Below are positions 4,761 through 62,075 of a DNA stretch of 64,000 bases, one piece after another. Position numbers and translations under genes: made by a program. Each line of letters begins with the position of its first letter. Within the stretch, counting starts at the first letter, position 1. Under the pieces are notes generated by a model that did no database searches, was not told the DNA's origin, and was given only the letters and a program-made list of their open reading frames with translations. The stretch covers positions 29,624,707 through 29,688,706 of the forward strand of contig NC_089852.1 in assembly GCF_036373705.1 (NCBI RefSeq), in the 5' to 3' direction. Origin of the DNA: Amia ocellicauda (lineage: Eukaryota; Chordata; Actinopteri; Amiiformes; Amiidae).

Positions 4761-5488
4761 TTAGTACTTGGTGGCAAAACCCTTGTTGGCAATCACAGAG
4801 GTCAGACGTTTCTTGTAGTTGGCCACCAGGTTTGCACACATCCCAGGAGGGATTTTGTCCCACTCCTCTTTGCAGATCCTCTCCAAGTCATTAAGGTTTC
4901 AGAAAAACACCCCCAAAGCATAATGTTTCCACCTCCATGTTTGATGGTGGGGATGGTGTTCTTGGGGTCATTCCTCCTCCTCCAAACACGGTGAGTTGAG
5001 TTGATGCCAAAGAGCTCGATTTTGGTCTCATCTGACCACAACACTTTCACCCAGTTCTCCTCTGAATCATTCAGATGTTCATTGGCAAACTTCAGACGGG
5101 CCTGTACATGTGCTTTCTTGAGCAGGGGGACCTTGCGGGCGCTGCAGGATTTCAGTCCTTCACGGCGTAGTGTGTTACCAATTGTTTTCTTGGTGACTAT
5201 GGTCCCAGCTGCCTTGAGATCATTAACAAGATCCTCCCGTGTAGTTCTGGGCTGATTCCTCACCGTTCTCATGATCATTGAAACTCCACGAGGGGAGATC
5301 TTGCATGGAGCCCCAGACCGAGGGAGACTGACAGTTATTTTGTGTTTCTTCCATTTGCGAATAATCGCACCAACTGTTGTCACCCTCTCACCAAGCTGCT
5401 TGGCGATGGTCTTGTAGCCCATTCCAGCCTTGTGTAGATCTACAATCTTGTCCCTGACATCCTTGGACACCTCTTTGGTCTTGGTCAT
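4761..5488 (-). pseudogene. Tc1 transposase, middle deleted and frameshifted
   Basis: Translation from the ATG at 5488 gives a Tc1-type transposase start ([20 protein letters not shown]), two helix-turn-helix regions, the first catalytic aspartate in '[11 protein letters not shown]', and then '[12 protein letters not shown]'. At about 4897-4901 the sequence jumps to the C-terminal tail, which resumes in another frame ('[14 protein letters not shown]' ... 'NKGFATKY' stop at 4761). The block with the second catalytic Asp and the final Glu is missing, so no active transposase can be made from this copy. The deletion removed roughly 100 codons by comparison with family members. The 228-aa open frame that runs through the junction ends in unrelated out-of-frame residues. 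Confidence 0.9.
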
Positions 5489-26536: not shown

Positions 26537-27764
26537 CACTCACCTAAAGGATTATTAGGAACACCTGTTCAATTTCTCATTAATGCAATTATCTAACCAA
26601 CCAATCACATGGCAGTTGCTTCAATGCATTTAGGGGTGTGGTCCTGGTCAAGACAATCTCCTGAACTCCAAACTGAATGTCTGAATGGGAAAGAAAGGTG
26701 ATTTAAGCAATTTTGAGCGTGGCATGGTTGTTGGTGCCAGACGGGCCGGTCTGAGTATTTCACAATCTGCTCAGTTACTGGGATTTTCACGCACAACCAT
26801 TTCTAGGGTTTACAAAGAAAAGTGAAAGGTGTGAAAAGGGAAAAACATCCAGTATGCGGCAGTCCTGTGGGCGAAAATGCCTTGTTGATGCTAGAGGTCA
26901 GAGGAGAATGGGCCGACTGATTCAAGCTGATAGAAGAGCAACTTTGACTGAAATAACCACTCGTTACAACCGAGGTATGCAGCAAAGCATTTGTGAAGCC
27001 ACAACACGTACAACCTTGAGGCGGATGGGCTACAACAGCAGAAGACCCCACCGGGTACCACTCATCTCCACTACAAATAGGAAAAAGAGGCTACAATTTG
27101 CACAAGCTCACCAAAATTGGACAGTTGAAGACTGGAAAAATGTTGCCTGGTCTGATGAGTCTCGATTTCTGTTGAGACATTCAGATGGTAGAGTCAGAAT
27201 TTGGCGTAAACAGAATGAGAACATGGATCCATCATGCCTTGTTACCACTGTGCAGGCTGGTGGTGGTGGTGTAATGGTGTGGGGGATGTTTTCTTGGCAC
27301 ACTTTAGGCCCCTTAGTGCCAATTGGGCATCGTTTAAATGCCACGGCCTACCTGAGCATTGTTTCTGACCATGTCCATCCCTTTATGACCACCATGTACC
27401 CATCCTCTGATGGCTACTTCCAGCAGGATAATGCACCATGTCACAAAGGTCGAATCATTTCAAATTGGTTTTTTGAACATGACAATGAGTTCACTGTACT
27501 AAACTGGCCCCCACAGTCACCAGATCTCAACCCAATAGAGCATCTTTGGGATGTGGTGGAACGGGAGCTTCGTGCCCTGGATGTGCATCCCACAAATCTC
27601 CATCAACTGCAAGATGCTATCCTATCAATATGGGCCAACATTTCTAAAGAATGCTTTCAGCACCTTGTTGAATCAATGCCACGTAGAATTAAGGCAGTTC
27701 TGAAGGCGAAAGGGGGTCAAACACAGTATGAGTATGGTGTTCCTAATAATCCTTTAGGTGAGTG
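26537..27764 (+). mobile_element. Tc1/mariner DD36E-type transposon, copy A (1228 bp)
   Basis: Bounded by TA (26535-26536, 27765-27766) with short inverted ends 'cactcacctaaaggattatt' and its complement. It is nearly identical along its whole length to copy C (45051-46271) and to the ends of copy B (42926-43396). It lies just downstream of, and antiparallel to, the sialyltransferase gene, ending 140 bp beyond that gene's stop codon. Coding damage is described in the pseudogene entry. Confidence 0.95.
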
Positions 27765-27903: not shown

Positions 27904-30359
27904 TCAGTGCCGCAGTGGGGAGACGGGGGGGTGGAGCGAGGGTGTGGCCCTCCTGGTGCCGGCCTGGCATTTTCCGAGTTGAACCCTAATGATGCCCTGG
28001 TTATGGAGCATGAGCAGATGGCTGAATTCAGTGGACATGGCGTGGATAGTCTTCTTGGCCTGCTGGTCATCGTAGTAGTGGTTGGTGAGTGGGTGCTTGC
28101 TGTGGGGGTCCTTGGAGAAGGGCCAGAAGCCGTAGAGCTGCACATTAGCACAGAGCTCCAGGGCCAGGCTGGCCATGATGAGCCCAGTGCTGAGACGTAT
28201 CGCCTGCAGGCCCTGTGCCTTCCAAAAACGTGCCAGGTTGTGCAGGTACTCTGGGTTCAAGAAGACGGGGCGTACAGGGCTGTCAAAGTCCTGCAGGGTG
28301 TAGAGGGCCCGCAGGGACACGGGGGTGTTGCGGCTGTAGGAGAAGGCAGGAAGCACCAGCAGGGGATCCCCGTAGCTGCCCAGGCTGTCCACAAAGGGCC
28401 GCCGGAGCTCCATCAACCCATTGAACCTGAGGGGGGCGAGAGCACGGCAGTGAAAAGCCACACAGAATCAGCCTGGTTCAGTCATTCTTGGTGTGATGAT
28501 GTCCTTGTGACCATTAACAGTTTTGTCAGCTGGGTTGCTCTGCCTTTAAGACAGCTCTGGTAAAGCCCGTACTTAGAAAACAAACTAATTCAGATACCTG
28601 ACTAACTTCAAATTATCCTTTCGCGGCTAAGGGTTTTGCAAAGGTAGCATTTAAACAAATCGATAGTTTGCTCAGTAATAATACTTGAGAAGTTCCAGTC
28701 AGGGTATATAGCCCATATCATATCACAAAGATGGCTCTGGTCAAAAAAAGTTGGTTATTGACTTAAATATTTGTACAGTTTCAAATGCTGTCATTGTACT
28801 TGATCATCTCACAACATTGGTAGACCTGTTCAGAACTGTCTTGACATCACTTACAAACAAGCAGTCTGTTTCTAAAACAAAAGGTATTGTTCGTGGCGTC
28901 CTTCTGGGTTCTGTTCTGGGTCCTGTGGGATTTATTTTTATATTGCATTACTATTTTCTATATACTTTTACCATTAGGTGTAATTATTGGATAAATTGTA
29001 ATTGTTATACTGAAGATACAGATTATCTTGTCAAAACATCAGCAACATTAGTAATATTCCATCTGAGAAGGAAAAAAGTGACAATAGTAAGTACAAACGT
29101 TTAAATTAAGGATTTAAGTGAAGGTATTTTGTTGTCTTACAATTGGCTTCACTACATTCGCTCCCTAGTACATTGAAGGATTGATTTAAAAAATATGTTA
29201 TTAACATATAAAGCATTAATTGATTGAAATTTAACAGAGATGCCTACATCCTATAAGCCTGCACCTTTATGGAGGCCAGCTGACAACAGCCTTCTTTGTG
29301 TTCTTTGTAACAAAACAAGTGATCTTAATTATTCTCCAAACAATTATGTGAATTAAGTAATTAAGATCTTAGGAGGAAAGACCAGGACAGGAACTGTCCA
29401 GCTCTATCCGTATGATATTATCAATTGGGATGCCCACCCTAACTCTGACTCACTTATCAAGAAGGATGCTGGGATTGGCAGTCACCAGGCTGGTCTTGTT
29501 ACCCACATCCCTCTGATAGCCATGGTCCACGGGGGGAAGATTACACCTGTGCAGCACAGAGACAGAGAAGGCGTCGGGTCACACACCAACTTATACAAAC
29601 AAATGAACATATACCCAACATGCATCCTAGTGCAATAGAGAGAGAGAAGCAGTGATACACTAAGGCAGGTATTGCATGCACACAAAAATACAATGGTACC
29701 CAGAAATAACACATTATTATCCAGATGGGCTGCTCTGAGGAGGGCAGAGGAGAAACTGAATAGTGCCTACTTCCAGTCCATCCATCCACTCTCACACACA
29801 CACAGTTACAAGGCAGGTTTGAGGATCCCCAGAACCAGGGGGCAGCAAACGAGCAGGGGAAGCACATGGCCATCTGACTCCTCAAGACTTGTCCTGTTCT
29901 CCTGCAGAGGAGAGCGAAGAGTAGTGTGGAAAATACTGGATGTGGACTGGATTGTGGTAACAGACTTTGTTTATATGGACTTTGATCTGGTTTTGAGTTT
30001 TTGTTCAAATAAACTTTTGTTTCTTTTGCTAAACACAGTTGTGCGCCTGCCTGTTTGATTACAGCAGTGAAGGTCACCCATGACAGAGGGATCTGTAATA
30101 CGTTTATCATGAGCACTGTGTTTAACAAATCACGTTCTGCTCTCCACATCCCTACCTTATGAACGCCTGTGTTTCTTGGCAGTTTGACAAGCGGCGGAAC
30201 TACACCCATCAGGCAGCGCGAAAGCACGCCGGACGAGGTGAGCAGCGGGGGAGTGGGGCCGATGCTCGACGGTAATGACATTTTAATCACGCCATTTGAA
30301 GCCCGTTCTACTGCTATAACACGTGACAATGGCAGTGTGGAGACCAAAGCTGTCTCTGA

Positions 30360-40876: not shown

Positions 40877-42878
40877 AGTTAGTTAGTTAGTCACTTAGTT
40901 AATTTAGCCGAGCAGCAGTGCTTTCTAACCACAGATCTGTTTACAGTAACTCATCATTTCCTAGATGCTGATGAGTACTAAACAAATCAGTCTCCTCCTG
41001 ATATTAATAATGCAGGGAAATCTGCCATCTAAAACTATTGGGGGACATATGTCTGCTTTGTCCAGATGCCCTTATGAAAGTTGGGTGCAGTTTGGTAGAG
41101 ACAATGCTAAGAACCAAGATCTTGAACTGGGAGCCAGTGGAGAGAACATCTGAGGAGTATCTCTGTCACAAACCAGAGAAGACATGACAGCTTCATCTTT
41201 TAAACAGGATCAATGATACAGGTCTTTTGGAAGACTGTTAACTAGCAACTATATAGTAACTTCATAGATGAAGACAGTGGGCAACTGGTTTAAGCAAAAT
41301 AGGGTAAAGAGAACTTGGGTGAAGCTCTAGGTGAATATAAAAGCAATAAACCCAATAATCAAATAGAGTTGTGTTTACAGCTTTGCAGTGACCTGGTACG
41401 AACCTCACCTCTCCCCTGCCTCTGCTCCGTAAACAGCTCCTCCAGTCCCACTGTCACAAAAATAGCCACACTATTACCCATGTATGTAGCTCTGAGCGCC
41501 CCCTGCTGGGAACAGGATAAACTGACTACATTTCTCAAACATAGTCATCCCTGATTTTTGTATATTAGTCTAATATTGGTTTAATTCCCCTTGATTCATT
41601 ATTACATTATTTTAGGTCACTTTTTTTGTGGTACTGTATGAATTATTACATTTTTCCCCCACCACCCGCAAGAACACCCTGTGGGTCCTTGGTGTGAGAG
41701 AGTTTACAGAGCCTGTAAAATGAGGGGCCATTACTGCAGTGAGATTATTCAGGCTGGGGCCTCAGCAGCAACCAGTACAGCTCGCTTAAGCAGCTAACAA
41801 GCGAACCTCAGTGCCCATCTACACAAACCCCGCTGTTCACCCCAGGGCGTCTGCCAAATTGCTCTCCTGGCGCTTTGCCATAACCATAGAGACCAGTGGC
41901 ACCCAAATTCTGAGCTCCCCACCGATTAATACCCAACATAAGCTCAAGTTTCCTCCTTATCAGAAGTATACAGAAATGTAATTTTAAAACAACACACATT
42001 ACAGATTTGTATATTTTTTACCTTCGTACACACTATGTACTCCTTTTTCCTGTACTCGTTCTAGTGTATGTTTGTTTTACATAAGGGCCTCTTTGTGCTT
42101 CTGTAGTAGAAACCGTGTATTTTTGTAATACCAGGAAAAACTAGCCTGATATTTTTACAAATCTTTCATTAGCGGTTAAACCGAGGCAAACTGCCACTGA
42201 AATTAGAAAGTCGGTGTGGAAAGTCAAGTTGTTGTTGTTTGCTGTTCAATGTTAAACAGAAAGTTTGCTGAATCCATTTAAGACAAATATCCACATAATC
42301 AACAAACCTGATCTCCGATACAAATTATAATTGAGCATGCAGGTGCTTCATTTAAAAATAGACCCAAATGTATCCATCGAACTTTCCTGGAATAAATACT
42401 ATTTTACACAAAGAGCTTGTTGACAGAACTATGGGTCAAGTACAATGAAGGCCATGATCAATCCCTCCAATCAATACATGTACAATTGTGAACACCACTA
42501 TGTATACATACTAACTATGTGTCTAAAGGGGTTAGAATGGTGTTTTTTAAATAGGATACACATATTAATATATTGTTTGCCTTGACATAAATTAATGCAT
42601 CATCTCTTAACTTTTCAGTCCTGCAAGAATCGACAGAATAATTTAAAAAGCTTAAAGGATATAACAGTAGGCCCCACAGGTACAGAGAACAGCCACAAGA
42701 GGAAGACAGAGGTACCCAAATATTGAGATTGACAGAATCCCCATTATGCCTCGCGGAAAACAATTGTGCAGATAATCTAAATGTATTTGAGTGAGAGTTA
42801 AAATTAAACCATATGTGTGTGCTGATATACATTTAAATAACAACATATTTAATTACCAGATTTATACTGGAAGAAAAT

Positions 42879-42923
<45 letters not shown>

Positions 42924-42925
42924 CA
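40877..42925. other. intergenic, no gene recognised
   Basis: No domain-bearing frame. A TTAG tetranucleotide run lies at 40875-40890, and a mixed CA/TA microsatellite at 42878-42923 abuts DD36E copy B. Confidence 0.5.
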
Positions 42926-43248
42926 CACTCACCTAAAGGATTATTAGGAACACCATACTCATACTGTGTTTGACCCCCTTTCGCCTTCAGAACTGCCTTA
43001 ATTCTACGTGGCATTGATTCAACAAGGTGCTGAAAGCATTCTTTAGAAATGTTGGCCCATATTGATAGGATAGCATCTTGCCGCATACTGGATGTTTTTC
43101 CCTTTTCACACCATTCTTTGTAAACCCTAGAAATGGTTGTGCGTGAAAATCCCAGTAACAGAGCAGATTGTGAAATACTCAGACCGGCCCGTCTGGCACC
43201 AACAACCATGCCACGCTCAAAATTGCTTAAATCACCTTTCTTTCCCAT
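42862..43248 (-). pseudogene. transposase remnant: DNA-binding half fused to C-terminal tail
   Basis: From the ATG at 43248 the frame reads the first 57 residues of the DD36E transposase (MGKKGDLSNFERGMVVGARR ... 'GKTSSMRQ', the first helix-turn-helix) and then, in frame, the last 38 or so ('DAILSIWANI' ... 'GGQTQY'). The stop is lost (TAG to GAG-type change), so translation runs into the flanking microsatellite. All three catalytic residues are gone. Whether it is expressed is unknown; such truncated products can in principle bind element ends without cutting. Confidence 0.8.
42878..42923. repeat. (AC)n(AT)n compound microsatellite
   Basis: An AC run followed by an AT run, ending at the left edge of the DD36E deletion derivative. 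A second TA run (43396-43418) marks the other edge, so the element inserted in or seeded a TA-rich array. Confidence 0.93.
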
Positions 43249-43396
43249 TCAGACATTCAGTTTGGAGTTCAGGAGATTGTCTTGACCAGGACCACACCCC
43301 TAAATGCATTGAAGCAACTGCCATGTGATTGGTTGGTTAGATAATTGCATTAATGAGAAATTGAACAGGTGTTCCTAATAATCCTATAGGTGAGTG
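42926..43396 (-). mobile_element. DD36E Tc1 deletion derivative, copy B (471 bp)
   Basis: Both ends match copies A and C (left 'cactcacctaaaggattatt', right 'ggtgagtg' followed by TA at 43397-43398). About 750 bp of the interior are missing. The right-hand TA is intact; on the left the AC/TA microsatellite has blurred it. Deletion joint at about 43080-43083, where GCA is shared by both parents of the joint. Confidence 0.92.
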
Positions 43397-44433: not shown

Positions 44434-44685
44434 CAGTGAGGGGAAAAAAGTATTTGATCCCCTGCTGATTTTGTATGTTTTCCCACTGACAAAGAAATGA
44501 TTCCCTCATTAACATGCAAATCAATGTATAACTTTTTTGAAATGCGTTTTTCTGGATTCTTTTGTTGTTATTCTGTCTCTCACTGTTAAAATACACCTAC
44601 CATTAAAATTATAGACGGATCATTTCTTTGTCAGTGGGCAAACGTACAAAATCAGCAGGGGATCAAATACTTTTTTCCCTCACTG
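44434..44685. mobile_element. 252-bp MITE of the Tc1 family seen at 4554
   Basis: TA at 44432-44433 and 44686-44687. It consists almost only of the two inverted ends of the 4554-5855 element ('cagtgaggggaaaaaagtat' left, complement right), with the whole transposase removed. The arms are nearly complementary, so the element is close to one large hairpin. It interrupts the LINE directly before 'YLDFQKAFDKVPH'. Confidence 0.93.
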
Positions 44686-45050
44686 TACTTAGATTTTCAG
44701 AAAGCTTTTGATAAGGTTCCACACCAAAGACTGATCCTAAACTTGGAAGCTGTAGGCATTCAGGGTAATGTAAGTAGATGGATTATGAACTGGTTGATGT
44801 ATAGGAAACAGAGGGTGTCGATTAGAGGAGTCTCTTCTAACTGGAGTGAGATTGTAAGTGGAGTTCCACAGGGATCAGTACTAAGGCCTTTGCTTTTTCT
44901 AATCTAAATTAATTATCTAGACTCTGGGATAGTTAGCAAACTTGTCACATTTGCAGATGATACTAAAATAGGTGGCTCAGCAGATACAATCTCGGCAGCA
45001 CAGGCTATTCAAAGGGACTTGGATAATATTCAGACAAGTGCAAGGTATTA

Positions 45051-46271
45051 CACTCACCTAAAGGATTATTAGGAACACCTGTTCAATTTCTCATTAATGC
45101 AAGTATCTAACCAACCAATCACATGGCAGTTGCTTCAATGCATTTAGGGGTGTGGTCCTGGTCAAGACAATCTCCTGAACTCCAAACTGAATGTCTGAAT
45201 GGGAAAGAAAGGTGATTTAAGCCATTTTGAGCGTGGCATGGTTGTTGGTGCCAGACGGGCCGGTCTGAGTATTTCACAATCTGCTCAGTTACTGGGATTT
45301 TCACGCACAACCATTTCTAGGGTTTACAAAGAATGGTGTGAAAAGGGAAAAACATCCAGTATGCGGCAGTCCTGTGGGCGAAAATGCCTTGTTGACGCTA
45401 GAGGTCAGAGGAGAATGGGCCGACTGATTCAAGCTGATAGAAGAGCAACTTTGACTGAAATAACCACTCGTTACAACCGAGGTATGCAGCAAAGCATTTG
45501 TGAAGCCACAACACGTACAACCTTGAGGCGGATGGGCTACAACAGCAGAAGACCCCACCGGGTACCACTCATCTCCACTACAAATAGGAAAAAGAGGCTA
45601 CAATTTGCACAAGCTCACCAAAATTGGACAGTTGAAGACTGGAAAAATGTTGCCTGGTCTGATGAGTCTCGATTTCTGTTGAGACATTCAGATGGTAGAG
45701 TCAGAATTTGGCGTAAACAGAATGAGAACATGGATCCATCATGCCTTGTTACCACTGTGCAGGCTGGTGGTGGTGGCGTAATGGTGTGGGGGATGTTTTC
45801 TTGGCACACTTTAGGCCCCTTAGTGCCAATTGGGCATCGTTTAAATGCCACGGCCTACCTGAGCATTGTTTCTGACCATGTCCATCCCTTTATGACTACC
45901 ATGTACCCATCCTCTGATGGCTACTTCCAGCAGGATAATGCACCATGTCACAAAGGTCGAATCATTTCAAATTGGTTTCTTGAACATGACAATGAGTTCA
46001 CTGTACTAAACTGGCCCCCACAGTCACCAGATCTCAACCCAATAGAGTATCTTTGGGATGTGGTGGAACGGGAGCTTCGTGCCCTGGATGTGCATCCCAC
46101 AAATCTCCATCAACTGCAAGATGCTATCCTATCAATATGGGCCAACATTTCTAAAGAATGCTTTCAGCACCTTGTTGAATCAATGCCACGTAGAATTAAG
46201 GCAGTTCTGAAGGCAAAAGGGGGTCAAACACAGTATTAGTATGGTGTTCCTAATAATCCTTTAGGTGAGTG
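45051..46271 (+). mobile_element. Tc1/mariner DD36E-type transposon, copy C, ORF-intact (1221 bp)
   Basis: TA at 45049-45050 and 46272-46273, with inverted ends 'cactcacctaaaggattatt' and complement. It holds one uninterrupted transposase gene (45199-46239). It is inserted in the reverse transcriptase region of the LINE at 43430-46995, so it is younger than the LINE. It differs from copy A at very few positions, which means recent activity of the family. Confidence 0.95.
45199..46239 (+). CDS. Tc1/mariner transposase, DD36E type, intact
   Basis: A 346-aa cut-and-paste transposase that would bind the element's inverted ends and integrate at TA. The N-terminal half carries two helix-turn-helix regions (about 8-50, with 'ISQSAQLLGFSRTTISRVYK', and about 70-115). 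The catalytic core shows Asp155 ('WSDESRF'), the glycine-rich block 'AGGGGVMVWGMF' (189-200), Asp246 ('QQDNAPCH') and Glu283 ('NPIEYLWD'). There are 36 residues between Asp246 and Glu283, two more than the classic DD34E spacing. That fits the published DD36E ('Incomer') group of vertebrate Tc1/mariner elements. Start ATG and TAG stop are intact; no frameshift seen. Transcription and activity are unproven, and a missense defect cannot be excluded. Confidence 0.92.
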   Translation: MGKKGDLSHFERGMVVGARRAGLSISQSAQLLGFSRTTISRVYKEWCEKGKTSSMRQSCGRKCLVDARGQRRMGRLIQADRRATLTEITTRYNRGMQQSICEATTRTTLRRMGYNSRRPHRVPLISTTNRKKRLQFAQAHQNWTVEDWKNVAWSDESRFLLRHSDGRVRIWRKQNENMDPSCLVTTVQAGGGGVMVWGMFSWHTLGPLVPIGHRLNATAYLSIVSDHVHPFMTTMYPSSDGYFQQDNAPCHKGRIISNWFLEHDNEFTVLNWPPQSPDLNPIEYLWDVVERELRALDVHPTNLHQLQDAILSIWANISKECFQHLVESMPRRIKAVLKAKGGQTQY

Positions 46272-47739
46272 TACATGCAGGTAACAAAAATGTCCACTAT
46301 AATTACACTATGGGAGGAATAGAACTAGATGAAGTCACACATGAGAAAGACCTAGGAGTCTATGTGGACTCCTCACTTTCTCCATCCAAACAATGTGGGG
46401 AAGCAATAAAAAAGGCAAACACAATGTTAGGGTATATTGTCAAAAGTGTAGAATTGAGAACAGGGGCAGTGATGTTCAGACTGTACTGCACTAGTTAGAG
46501 CTCATCTGGATACTGTGTGCAGCTCTGGGCTCCACACTTCAAGAAAGATATCGCTGCTCTAGAGGCAGTTCAGAGGAGAGCAACCAGACTTATTCCAGGT
46601 CTGAAGGGAAAGTCCTACTGAGAGACTGAGGAACTGAACCTTTTCACCCTGGAACAGAGGAGACTACTGGGGACTTGATTCAAGTCTTCAAAATCATGAA
46701 AGACATCGACCACATCACACCAGAGGAGCTTTTCCAGATCAGCAGGGACACACGCCCCCGGGGACACAAATGGAAATTGGGCTTCAAGGCATTCAAGACA
46801 AAAAACAGGAGACACTTCTTCACACAGAGAGGCGTCACAATCTGGAACAAACCCCCCAGCGATGTGGTAGAAGTGGACAATTTGGGAACATTTAAAAATA
46901 GACTGGACAGGATCCTTGGATCAGTTAGTTATTAATGGACACCAAACAAGCACCATGGGTCAAATGGCCTCCTCTCGTTTGCAAACTTTCTTATGTTCTT
47001 ATATTTACATTTCCCAGGAAAAGCAAAATCCCCCATTTTATTTTTAAATAAATAGCAGTATGGGTTTCATCATAAACCAAATTTACATTTAACAACTAAA
47101 GCCAAGATGACAAGCGCCTTATTCTAAATTAGTTTGGAGAATTAAGTTAACAATTCTATAGATAAGGTTGCATTTCAGATACAGTAGGATTTCTAATGTT
47201 TAACTAGCAATATTTACCCCACAATAATAGGAAAACCAAACTGTGAATGCTGGAGTAAATAAAACAAATAAATAATTAAATACCCCAAATGAGGGAATAT
47301 CTTTTGGAAGAATGTGTTCATCCCTCCAGTAGAGTCCAGAGACTCGTAGAATCTGTGCCAAGAGCATCGAAGCTGTTCTGATGGCTCGTGGTGCCAAACA
47401 CCTTACTGAGACACTTTATGTTGGTTTGTCCTTTACTTTGTCACCCATCTGTATATACAACCAAGACTCTGTATTCCATTTGAATGTCTAATGTACATAT
47501 TAAGATGTTAATTAAAATCATAACTCAGAACTACATGAATCATACAGTCCTTGATCAACACTCGGGTCAGACCGCCCCCACACTCACGGCCCATTTCACC
47601 TCATGTTATGAAACCCAGACCAAGAGGTGGCCAGCTCAATCACAGGCAGAATGGTCAGAGCAAACCTGCTGTTACTAGAAGCTACAATACTCTGCTGCAT
47701 AATTTCACTAACGTAATTAACTTTTCCTAAAAATCTAAA

Positions 47740-53990: not shown

Positions 53991-54820
53991 GTCAGGCGGA
54001 GCCATACCATTATCAGGAAAGGGAGATCCCATCGCCACCAGAAAGGCACACACTCTCTAAAATAGATCTCTCTTAGCAAGAGGGCAGTTTATAGACAATA
54101 CGCTACCGTTATTTGAACGTTGTTTTTAATGAAAATGTTTTAAAACTATTAGCTATAAGTTAAAACAGAACAAGTAGATTGTCGGAAACGGGATCTCCCT
54201 ACGCTGATTACAAATGGTATGTCCCCAAAGCCACACTTTGCCCCGGTGCATGCTGGGATAAAGGTGATGCCTCTCTGCGCAGTTCTGCGTCGCCGCCAGA
54301 CGGCACTGAGGAGCCGTGAGGAAACACCGGGGAATATGACTGTAATTGATCCGCTTCATCCCCGATAATGTATTCCACATGAAATATCAATACAGCGACA
54401 CATACCGTGTGTTATATTTCTACTCCTGCTAAATAATCATACAATTATTATTAGCAAACGATATATGAATAAATAGCTGTGAAATAAGTCCTATTCAACT
54501 TTGGATATAATCACCCCCGTTTTGTCCACCATTCTTGCCAGTTTCTCGCCTAGGCAGCAGCTATCTGTCAACGGTTTAATGTCACACCGTGAACTTCCTC
54601 TGCTTCTGTGTTGAAATGCTAAAGAGAGAGTTATGTAAACAGTTTAACAGCTCTCACTCTTCTCCAGACACTTGGCGTGTGTGGGTCTGCTGTCCATCAT
54701 TGCACGCAGGGCGCAGCGCCTCGGACGGCCGGGTATCGGGGCTCTGCACTCGGGGGGAAACTGACTGGCAGCCAAGACAAGGCAATAAAGTGAAAATAAA
54801 TCAGTAATATTTCCCATGCA
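53991..54820. other. rpl19 upstream region
   Basis: No coding exon recognised. The part nearest the gene should be the rpl19 promoter; no clear TATA box was seen. CpG dinucleotides are enriched relative to surrounding DNA around 54230-54350 and 54690-54770. Confidence 0.45.
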
Positions 54821-54892
54821 AGGGGGCATCCGGATTTGAAGCGGGGACCTCTTGATCTGCAGTCAAATGCTCTACCACTGAGCTATACCCCC
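54821..54892 (-). tRNA. tRNA-Cys (GCA), T arm degenerate
   Basis: The reverse complement folds into a cloverleaf: acceptor GGGGGTA pairing with TGCCCCC (one G-T), D arm 'GCTCAGTGGTAGAGC', anticodon stem TTTGA/TCAAG with loop CTGCAGA (anticodon GCA at 54860-54858), and T loop TTCAAAT. The T stem is faulty: CCCGC against CCGGA leaves two mismatches, including the normally fixed G53-C61 pair. The B box reads GCTTCAAATCC where GGTTCAAATCC is expected. It may be a weak gene or a recent pseudogene. Located between rpl19 and cacnb1, on the rpl19 strand. Confidence 0.8.
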
Positions 54893-55689
54893 CACTGCAT
54901 ACGTGTCTCTATCGCATACCTTTGTGTAATTAAACACCTGAAGTTTTAAATTCGGACATCTATGTTCTGTTCTATCTAGTGCCTTTCTAAACTTTAATAT
55001 TGAATTACTGAGATACTGCGCTCATGGTTAGCCTATTGTCCACCGTTGTGTTTTATCACCTGGATAGGTATTTATTATGTCACGGATTTTAATTAAGAGA
55101 GCGAACTTACTCTGATTATGCTTTAAAATAGGTAATATCTAACGGAATAGTATATTTTAATAATAGCCTACATTATTAATTATTACTTATATAACTAAAT
55201 ATATAAACAGAAGCATTTCAAAATGAAGGCGCAGCAGGATTTTAATCGGTTAATTTGTAATCTACAATCAATGTCCCGCAACCAGGGGCATGTCTGGTCA
55301 TAGGGGTGTCTGACCTAAGAAATTAACTTTAAATAATTGACTGTTATATTATTCTTTAACCGCTGGTCTAGTTATTTGATCGATTTAGCTTATATACAAG
55401 ACAAGTCGATATTTCCAAAAATCAGAAACGTGCCGTATTATACAGCTGAGCTATATAGTTAATTATACAATTCAAGAATTCTATCAAATAAATCAAATAC
55501 AATGTTTAAAATAATTAAGTACATCTCTAGCGCAAAAGCTATTCAAACAGTAGGGAGGGGCACTGAGGGTAATTCTGCAATGTAAGTTTTGTATGTATTG
55601 TTTAATCATTGTTGTATTTTGTGTGGTGTGTGTTGTTGTGTTGTAAGCCAATTAATCTTTAATAATTTTTCTACCCTGAAAAAAGGACA
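54893..55689. other. intergenic, no gene recognised
   Basis: A+T-rich DNA with no domain-bearing frame and no clear repeat family. An old repeat edge may begin near 55560 ('tctgcaatgtaagttttgta' ... 'ctaccctgaaaaaaggacaa'). Confidence 0.5.
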
Positions 55690-58902: not shown

Positions 58903-61611
58903 GTAAGGAAAAAAAAAACCTAATAAGACACAAGCTTGTTTTATAAATAGGGTGTAGAGGGGGGAAGGGACGAGGTATCAAACCAAATAAAACATCGGCA
59001 ATAAACGAATAGTCAAATGTGGAGTCCAACTGCTCAAAGTGAGGTATCCAACTCAGAATGAACTGCACTGTCAATTACGTTAATTTGTATTTTGAAAATA
59101 AATTACAGTCATTTATATATTCACATATGCTTTTCATCGTATTACTCTATTTATGACTATGGTGTTTGTAAAATAAGGTATTGGTTCACATAATCGCTAT
59201 TATTATTATTGCTATTGATAACATTGATGTATAGCTGATTAAAAAGGTTAATGTATATACTGTATTAGTTACTGTCTACTCACTCGGCTTAAACCTAATT
59301 TTATGTTCTTATTGTAAGTGGCGTGCTGATGTGTAAGTTAACATGTAGCCTATATATAAATTATAATGAGTAAATCAACATTATATATACATTCTTCTTT
59401 AGAATGCGGGCAATGTTCCATTTTTCTTCTTCTTTATAAACCTACATTTTAAATCAATAGAAACCCATTTGTGCTGTTGCTCTGGTACAACTGTATACTG
59501 TTAATAGGAGTGGTCAAAACCTATGTTTTTCAATTATTTCTGTACAGCTTTGTATTACTCTAAAGTTATCGCGATTTATACATTAAATTGTAATGTCATT
59601 GGTGTATTTTCATTTAAACCTTTAAAGTGTTAATATTGTAATTACGATGGTTTACAGTTTGTGTTCAGGACAGGTGCTGGTGCCTTGATTGCTCAACCGT
59701 AAGAAGGGATAATCAAATCAAATAAAGATGTACGTGTTATCCAGTCTAGGATATACAGGGGATTGCCTGCCCTGACATCAACAGTATAGTTTTAGAAGTC
59801 TCTCAAAACACTACCTGTACTAACTCTGTAGAGTTGGGCAGGTGTTTGATTAGTTTGTATAGTTATGGTTACACTCAAGATTAGATGTTCAATATACTTA
59901 ATCGGTATGTTGTCTGTTTTAAATACAATTAGACACACCGTGGTGTTTACAGATCCTAACTAGATATTTGGTTAGTCATCACCCGCCCCAAATGGCTGGA
60001 TTATTGAATCTATTGAAGTCTCTAGCTTGCTACAAAATATGGACTATAACGTATGATGTTAAAACCAACACACGATTATATCTCAAACACAATTAGCCTT
60101 ATTACAACACATTTGGAGAGGGGGCTTAAATGGTTCACATGACAGTATCATTGACAACACTTGATTCTTTCACTGAAGACTGAAGGAAGGTGACTGCATA
60201 TTAAATTAATTACAATTTGCTGAATTATTTATGGTTCAAATGTATTGGTTTGTCTTTAATTCTGATACGTGTGTGTGGTTTCCTATTGTGCTGTATGTAT
60301 GTGATATTACTATCTACGCTGTCTGTTCTCTGTTTATTATTATTTATGTTTTGATTTTTCTCCAGATATTTTTCAAAAACTACATATAACAATGCAGTCT
60401 TTGAATATCTATAGAAGGGATCTACGTATCCACACAATTCTTCATATAACACTATGCCAGTGGTTTTGGGAAGGTTTATGTATTTCTCCATATAATTAAT
60501 TCCTTCCTGGGATATTTTTCAAGGAGTCAGACCTCGGGGCAGATTATAACGAAACTTTGATCCACCTTGTTACCATAAAATGACAAACCTGGTGGTGGCT
60601 TAATTTTTGGCCAGATGCTTCATTCTTTTACTCCTAAATAAAATCACTGTCAAGTACATATGTACTTTACTATTAGCAGGTGTGTTTTGAATTAATCCAC
60701 CCCCTAGTGTCTGAAATTTTCTAGGTTGGCTTTGCAGGTGCAGAACTTGTGGGCATTGTAATAAAACATTGAATGTAAACGTCAATGATTAATCAGCCGA
60801 AATGAAGCAGATTTAGCTTCCATAGAAAGGAAAACAATGTAGGACATGAGGAGATGAGGTATAGACTGAGGCATATTCTTGATGTTCTGTACACTATTAT
60901 CACCTCTGATGACATGCATACCATTGCTTTTAATTGATAAACCCCCTGTAGTCATTTGATTTGTAATCTCAACTTCTAGTTTAGGGAAATTCCTTGGTGA
61001 CTGGCTTAGCATTCATGAACTCAAGGTCACAGAATCTCAAGTGACCGTTTGATAAATTGCTTTAAATGCTTCATCATATAAAAAAGGAAGCGTTAAACTT
61101 AATATATCTCACAGCTGCCCGAGACTCTTTTACCTTACTTTAGTCAGGGGATTTCCCTTTGGTTTTCTGAAATATGATTGCAATTTGTTGTACTGAACAC
61201 TACCAGTTTTGATTTTCTTCATCTAGGTCTATCACATATTTATATAGATTTGATAATTATACAATTATTAAAAGAAAGCTAGTAAGACCAACCATTTAAT
61301 GTGTCATGCAATTCTTGATGTCCCTAAACATTAATTTGTATATTTGTTCATACTTAATGTGGAAACTGTTCTCACTCATTAAAAATGAGCATGGTCTTAT
61401 TAAATATGACATATTATTGTTTTAAAATTTGTTTTTTCTAATTTGATGGCCTTTTAATTGGCTGTACTTAAAGTGAATGTGCCACACAGGACCTCAGTGA
61501 AGTATTGCTGAATCATTTATGCTTTCTGTGAAAACGCCTCTTGTGAACTGTGTGTACCTGCAAACATAATTTGTATACACATTCATTTGTATACCTATCA
61601 TATCATATGTT
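58903..61611 (+). other. cacnb1 first intron, left part
   Basis: No exon recognised. The DNA is A+T-rich and single-copy-looking. The next cacnb1 exon (starting with a Gly-Lys-Tyr-Ser-Lys-type block) was searched for by eye and not seen, so the intron probably extends past the window. Confidence 0.6.
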
Positions 61612-61792
61612 CACACAGAGAGTTGTCACAATCTGGATCAAACTACCCAGCGATGTGGCTGAAGCTGAAAGTTTGGGAACATTCAAAAATAGACTGGATA
61701 GGATCCTTGGATCACTTAGTTATTAAGGAACACCAAACGAGCACAATGGGTCAAATGGCTTCCTCTTGTTTGTAAACTTTGTTATGTACTTG
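61612..61792 (+). repeat. CR1-like LINE 3' end, truncated copy
   Basis: Parallels 46830-46990 of the larger LINE: 'cacacagagagttgtcacaa', 'cccagcgatgtggctgaagc', 'aaaaatagactggataggat' and the tail 'gggtcaaatggcttcctctt'. It begins deep in the C-terminal coding part, so it is a typical 5'-truncated insertion. It lies in cacnb1 intron 1, in the sense direction. Confidence 0.85.
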
Positions 61793-62075
61793 TACCCCCT
61801 GGCAAGGGTTGTGGGCAAGCTAGAGCCAATCCCAGCAGGCATAGGGCACAAGGCAGGAATACACCCAGGACAGGCATCACACAGCAATTTAGAGAGACCA
61901 CTCAAACTAACTCACATGTCTTTGGACAGTGGGAGGAAACCAGAGTGCCCAGAGAAAACCCACATGGAGAACATGCAAACTCCACACACACAGTCCCCCC
62001 CAAGCCAGGACTCAAACCCAAGCCCTCAGAGCTGTGAAGCAGCAGTGCTAACCACCACACCACTTTGCCACTCAC
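61793..62075. repeat. dispersed vertebrate repeat ('gggaggaaacc' type)
   Basis: Contains 'atgtctttggacagtgggag', 'gaaaacccacatggagaaca', 'tgcaaactccacacacacag' and 'gtgctaaccaccacaccact', a combination that recurs in many fish genomes. It directly abuts the LINE tail at its left. Family name not assigned. Confidence 0.75.

Follow-up and report, generated by a model that had tools for sequence, protein, structure and literature searches.

Does the element at positions 45051–46271 of this window (the whole 64-kb stretch of DNA that we analysed) represent a young and possibly active transposon, and does it carry information on horizontal transfer among vertebrates? We find that this element, which we call copy A, is very probably a DD36E/Incomer DNA transposon of autonomous type that inserted recently into a decayed LINE, and that the window also holds two non-autonomous sisters, copies B and C.

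Copy A is a full-length Incomer-type DD36E Tc1/mariner element of 1221 bp on the forward strand. Its inverted ends (TIRs) comprise 29 bp each (left TIR 45051–45079, + strand; right TIR 46243–46271, − strand) and are identical to each other at 29 of 29 bases. They are flanked on both sides by a TA target-site duplication (45049–45050 and 46272–46273). The 64-kb window contains six matches to the TIR with three or fewer mismatches, whereas 100 dinucleotide shuffles yielded 0.00 on average. A single ORF (45199–46239, +) encodes a transposase of 346 aa with a catalytic triad of D155, D246 and E283, in which 36 residues separate the second aspartate from the glutamate. We rejected a chance origin of this ORF, as the longest one obtained in 500 base-shuffles of the element has 200 aa. 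The original prediction of a complete 346-codon transposase, a DD36E Tc1/mariner triad with this spacing, and intact inverted ends with TA duplications is thereby confirmed, and its coordinates are exact.

The element is inserted into an older LINE, which extends over 44683–46500 (+), coordinates that do not fix its outer limits. A reverse-transcriptase piece of the LINE occupies 44683–44904, and the LINE reading resumes from 46274. The piece upstream of copy A matches RVT_1 with an E-value of 6.3e-10. When the flanks of copy A are joined with a single TA, one continuous frame runs across the site (DKCKVLHAGNKN). The reconstructed empty site (left flank, TA and right flank) reads ...DKCKVLHAGNKNVHYNYTMGG..., with the frame unbroken at the junction, and includes DKCKV..HAG, a usual LINE motif. 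This continuous reading places copy A within the LINE, so that the nesting proposed earlier holds and the boundaries agree to the base. Upstream of the insertion site, the reverse-transcriptase reading contains an internal stop and a frame change, indicating that the LINE is already decayed. A second piece resembling the downstream part of the LINE is found at 61610–61794 (87% identity over 185 bases). The LINE piece is also adjoined by an inverted repeat at 44441–44679, with 61-nt arms that are 97% complementary and 117 nt apart; it resembles a short non-autonomous DNA element located within or beside the same LINE.

The copy A transposase exceeds the Pfam cut-offs for HTH_23 (residues 10–47), HTH_Tnp_Tc3_2 (residues 71–142) and DDE_3 (residues 151–295), while a fourth match, HTH_29, falls under its own cut-off. 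The sequence reads GRKC at residues 60–63. Among solved structures, Sleeping Beauty SB100X (5cr4) is the clear match (E-value 5.9e-44), with an alignment that covers residues 119–346 of copy A and reaches the last residue of both chains. Copy A has two more residues than SB100X between the second aspartate and the glutamate. Tc3 (E-value 0.75) is the only further match to a solved structure up to an E-value of 10. A single-sequence structure model of the transposase is too poor to define the fold (mean pLDDT 36.1, pTM 0.22): 303 of the 346 residues lie below a pLDDT of 50, and only the first helix-turn-helix region reaches the seventies.

Copy B (26537–27764, +) is also full-length, with identical TIRs and a TA on both sides, and its ORF is frameshifted. 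The cause of the frameshift is a 7-bp insertion near codon 44, and a further base change lies beside the insertion (codon 46 of copy A), where the alignment is difficult. Downstream of the insertion, copy B carries L261F and H284 relative to copy A. A sialyltransferase-family ORF (27907–28461, −; Glyco_transf_29, E-value 8.2e-33) lies 142 bases from copy B; it is probably an exon, and represents the one host gene identified in the window. A fish host would fit the known hosts of the Incomer family and the repeats typical of fishes, a question on which this ORF is not decisive. A tRNA-Cys (GCA) at 54820–54893 (−; 60.3 bits in Rfam) is either a gene or a tRNA-derived repeat.

Copy C, a third copy that is absent from the original prediction, is a 471-bp derivative located at 42926–43396 (−), 1,654 bases from copy A. 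It has lost 750 bp internally at a shared GCA; the deletion is a multiple of three and the frame is kept, an outcome expected by chance in one case in three. The resulting ORF of 128 aa (42862–43248, −) retains the first helix-turn-helix and the last 40 residues of the transposase, and continues beyond the right TIR into the flank. It matches HTH_23 with an E-value of 1.9e-5 and 24.8 bits, barely over the cut-off of 24.6. One of the copy C TIRs has a mismatch (28/29). The right end adjoins a TA; the two bases next to the left end are CA, with a TA two bases farther outward, and CA slippage in the adjoining repeat could be the source of this CA. If expressed, the 128-aa product, which combines an end-binding helix-turn-helix with the lack of a catalytic domain, could bind the TIRs and damp the transposition of copy A. 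We regard this as unlikely; if true, copy C would be a self-made repressor within a MITE-sized Incomer derivative. Copies C and A, 1.65 kb apart, are inverted relative to each other, with 320-nt arms that are 99% complementary, and a transcript spanning both copies could fold into a long hairpin.

Copies A and B differ by 10 substitutions in 1221 positions (0.82%) in addition to the 7-bp insertion. The near identity of A to a second copy, as originally described, thus stands, and the spacing of 18 kb given for the pair is corrected to 17,286 bases. Over the 471 positions of copy C, we count six substitutions between A and C (1.27%) and three between B and C (0.64%). This divergence of 0.6–1.3% among three copies bears out the earlier proposal of recent transposition. 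The near identity of A and B shows recent copying inside the genome, not transfer between species. If the neutral rate, which is assumed here and not measured, lies between 1e-9 and 1e-8 per site and year, copies A and B split approximately 0.4–4 million years ago (95% limits, 0.2–7.5 million years), which dates the common ancestry of the two copies and not the entry into the host. Copy A alone neither dates nor reveals horizontal transfer.

At four sites (45103, 45223, 46215 and 46237), copies B and C are identical to each other and unlike A. Position 45223 affects residue 9, and position 46237 belongs to the stop codon, where A has TAG and both of its sisters have GAG. Copy A most likely retains the ancestral stop and the loss is common to B and C, since the crystallised chain of Sleeping Beauty terminates at this same residue and Incomer transposases typically have approximately 346 aa. 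The common loss places B and C in one sublineage and A in another, and at least two sublineages are thus present in the window. Of the four sites, the stop is the only one to which we assign a polarity.

The three copies fall within 20 kb, which would fit a local duplication of the region that gave rise to A, B and C without separate transposition. We consider such an origin highly improbable, as the flanks are unlike (A is bordered by LINE sequence, B and C by CA/TA repeats) and the matches between copies extend no farther than the TIRs and the adjoining TA. Even less credence, practically none, is given to the adoption of the copy A transposase as a host gene: the ORF is intact, as it would be in that case, but the intact TIRs and TA, the near-identical defective copies nearby and the low divergence are those of an ordinary young transposon.

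Is copy A competent? As far as can be judged from the sequence, its ends, ORF and triad would allow activity. In a simulation restricted to substitutions, 271 of 400 neutral copies remained free of stops at 0.8% substitutions; the open frame of copy A is thus weak evidence of activity, and we rejected it as proof of selection. Copy A may be young but dead, having been disabled by a private change and either moved in trans or broken after its insertion. Residue 284, directly after the catalytic E283, is a tyrosine in A and a histidine in B, and residue 9, situated in the DNA-binding part, is a histidine in A, whereas C and the corresponding codon of B specify an asparagine. Y284 and H9, by which copy A departs from its sisters, may reduce its activity. 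However, the active transposase SB100X has an asparagine after the glutamate, so that a histidine is not strictly required at this position in an active relative, and the triad, domains, ORF and ends of copy A are all intact. We regard a dead copy A as possible, if somewhat doubtful.

The reading that we prefer, a recent insertion of an autonomous-type element with two non-autonomous sisters, has its direct basis in the anatomy, the precise insertion, the low divergence and the common alleles; the chemistry, the cross-mobilisation and the present competence are carried over from the family. The 346-aa transposase would bind the 29-bp ends via its helix-turn-helix units, and the D155–D246–E283 site would excise the element and integrate it at a TA, which is duplicated in the process. 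Copy A landed in a TA of the decayed LINE. B and C belong to the other sublineage of the same family, and C, formed by internal deletion, would be movable only via the transposase of a copy like A. The window combines an intact young copy with defective sisters, which makes it a handy example of a recently amplified family, and copy A would be a reasonable choice for an activity assay.

We searched for relatives of copy A in viral contigs (with the protein and two DNA strings), in genome contigs (with a 22-base string and the protein) and in phages (with the protein), and found none; among the genome contigs, none of eight pattern-matching stretches encoded a relative. No viral or bacterial carrier was seen, but the viral, phage, plasmid and contig collections scanned are not made up of fish genomes, and this result carries little weight. 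The TIR and other strings of copy A (six in all) had no match in the main texts of the open-access papers covered. One paper considered as related literature (PMC11008031) was discarded, as its accessible part concerns a hAT element.

How does copy A compare with known systems? The NCBIfam model transpos_IS630 of the bacterial IS630 elements matches the copy A transposase with an E-value of 8.5e-26 and 91.1 bits, which is below the cut-off of 100, and two plasmid records contain IS630-annotated matches that are distant (21.8% and 30.2% identity). Elements of the DD34E/Tc1 (Sleeping Beauty) type share the helix-turn-helix and DDE architecture of copy A, but their signature of 34 residues is absent, since copy A has 36 between the second aspartate and the glutamate. 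The TIRs also differ: according to the available excerpts of PMC9777934, those of SB/ZB elements measure 180–300 bp in 330 of 350 intact elements, whereas those of copy A measure 29 bp. The same excerpts indicate that DD36E/IC and some further families seem nested in DD34E/Tc1. A truncated Sleeping Beauty-type Tc1 transposase is encoded elsewhere in the window (4802–5488, −; HTH_SB, E-value 3e-24); it is 31% identical to copy A and is a separate Tc1 lineage.

Incomer, as described in the available part of Sang et al. 2019 (PMC6875036), is an element of approximately 1.2 kb with a DD36E transposase of approximately 346 aa, TIRs of 22–32 bp and TA duplications. Intact fish Incomers have 1169–1229 bp, 314–356 aa and TIRs of 24–32 bp, again with TA (PMC6875036). 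Copy A lies inside these published fish ranges in element length, ORF length, TIR length and target-site duplication, and its spacing of 36 agrees as well; among the features compared with that part of the source, no property distinguishes the two. The DNA-binding criteria for Incomer are two helix-turn-helix motifs, a GRPR-like motif and an NLS, and copy A has HTH_23, HTH_Tnp_Tc3_2 and GRKC. With its lengths, TIRs, TA and spacing, an Incomer-type DD36E Tc1/mariner identity of copy A, assigned from anatomy and not from a tree, is supported. The excerpts further report that Incomer, found mainly in ray-finned fishes, occurs in 132 species of this group, of which 76 have full-length copies and 33 have intact ones, and describe internally deleted derivatives (MITEs) from bats (PMC6875036). 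Repeated horizontal transfer among vertebrates was inferred there by comparison with RAG1, and the family is considered possibly active at present in fish (PMC6875036); later works cite Incomer and its transfers (PMC7731502, PMC7093834 and PMC9777934, each as far as accessible). Taken together, copy A looks like a well preserved, ordinary member of the known Incomer family, which is common in fishes.
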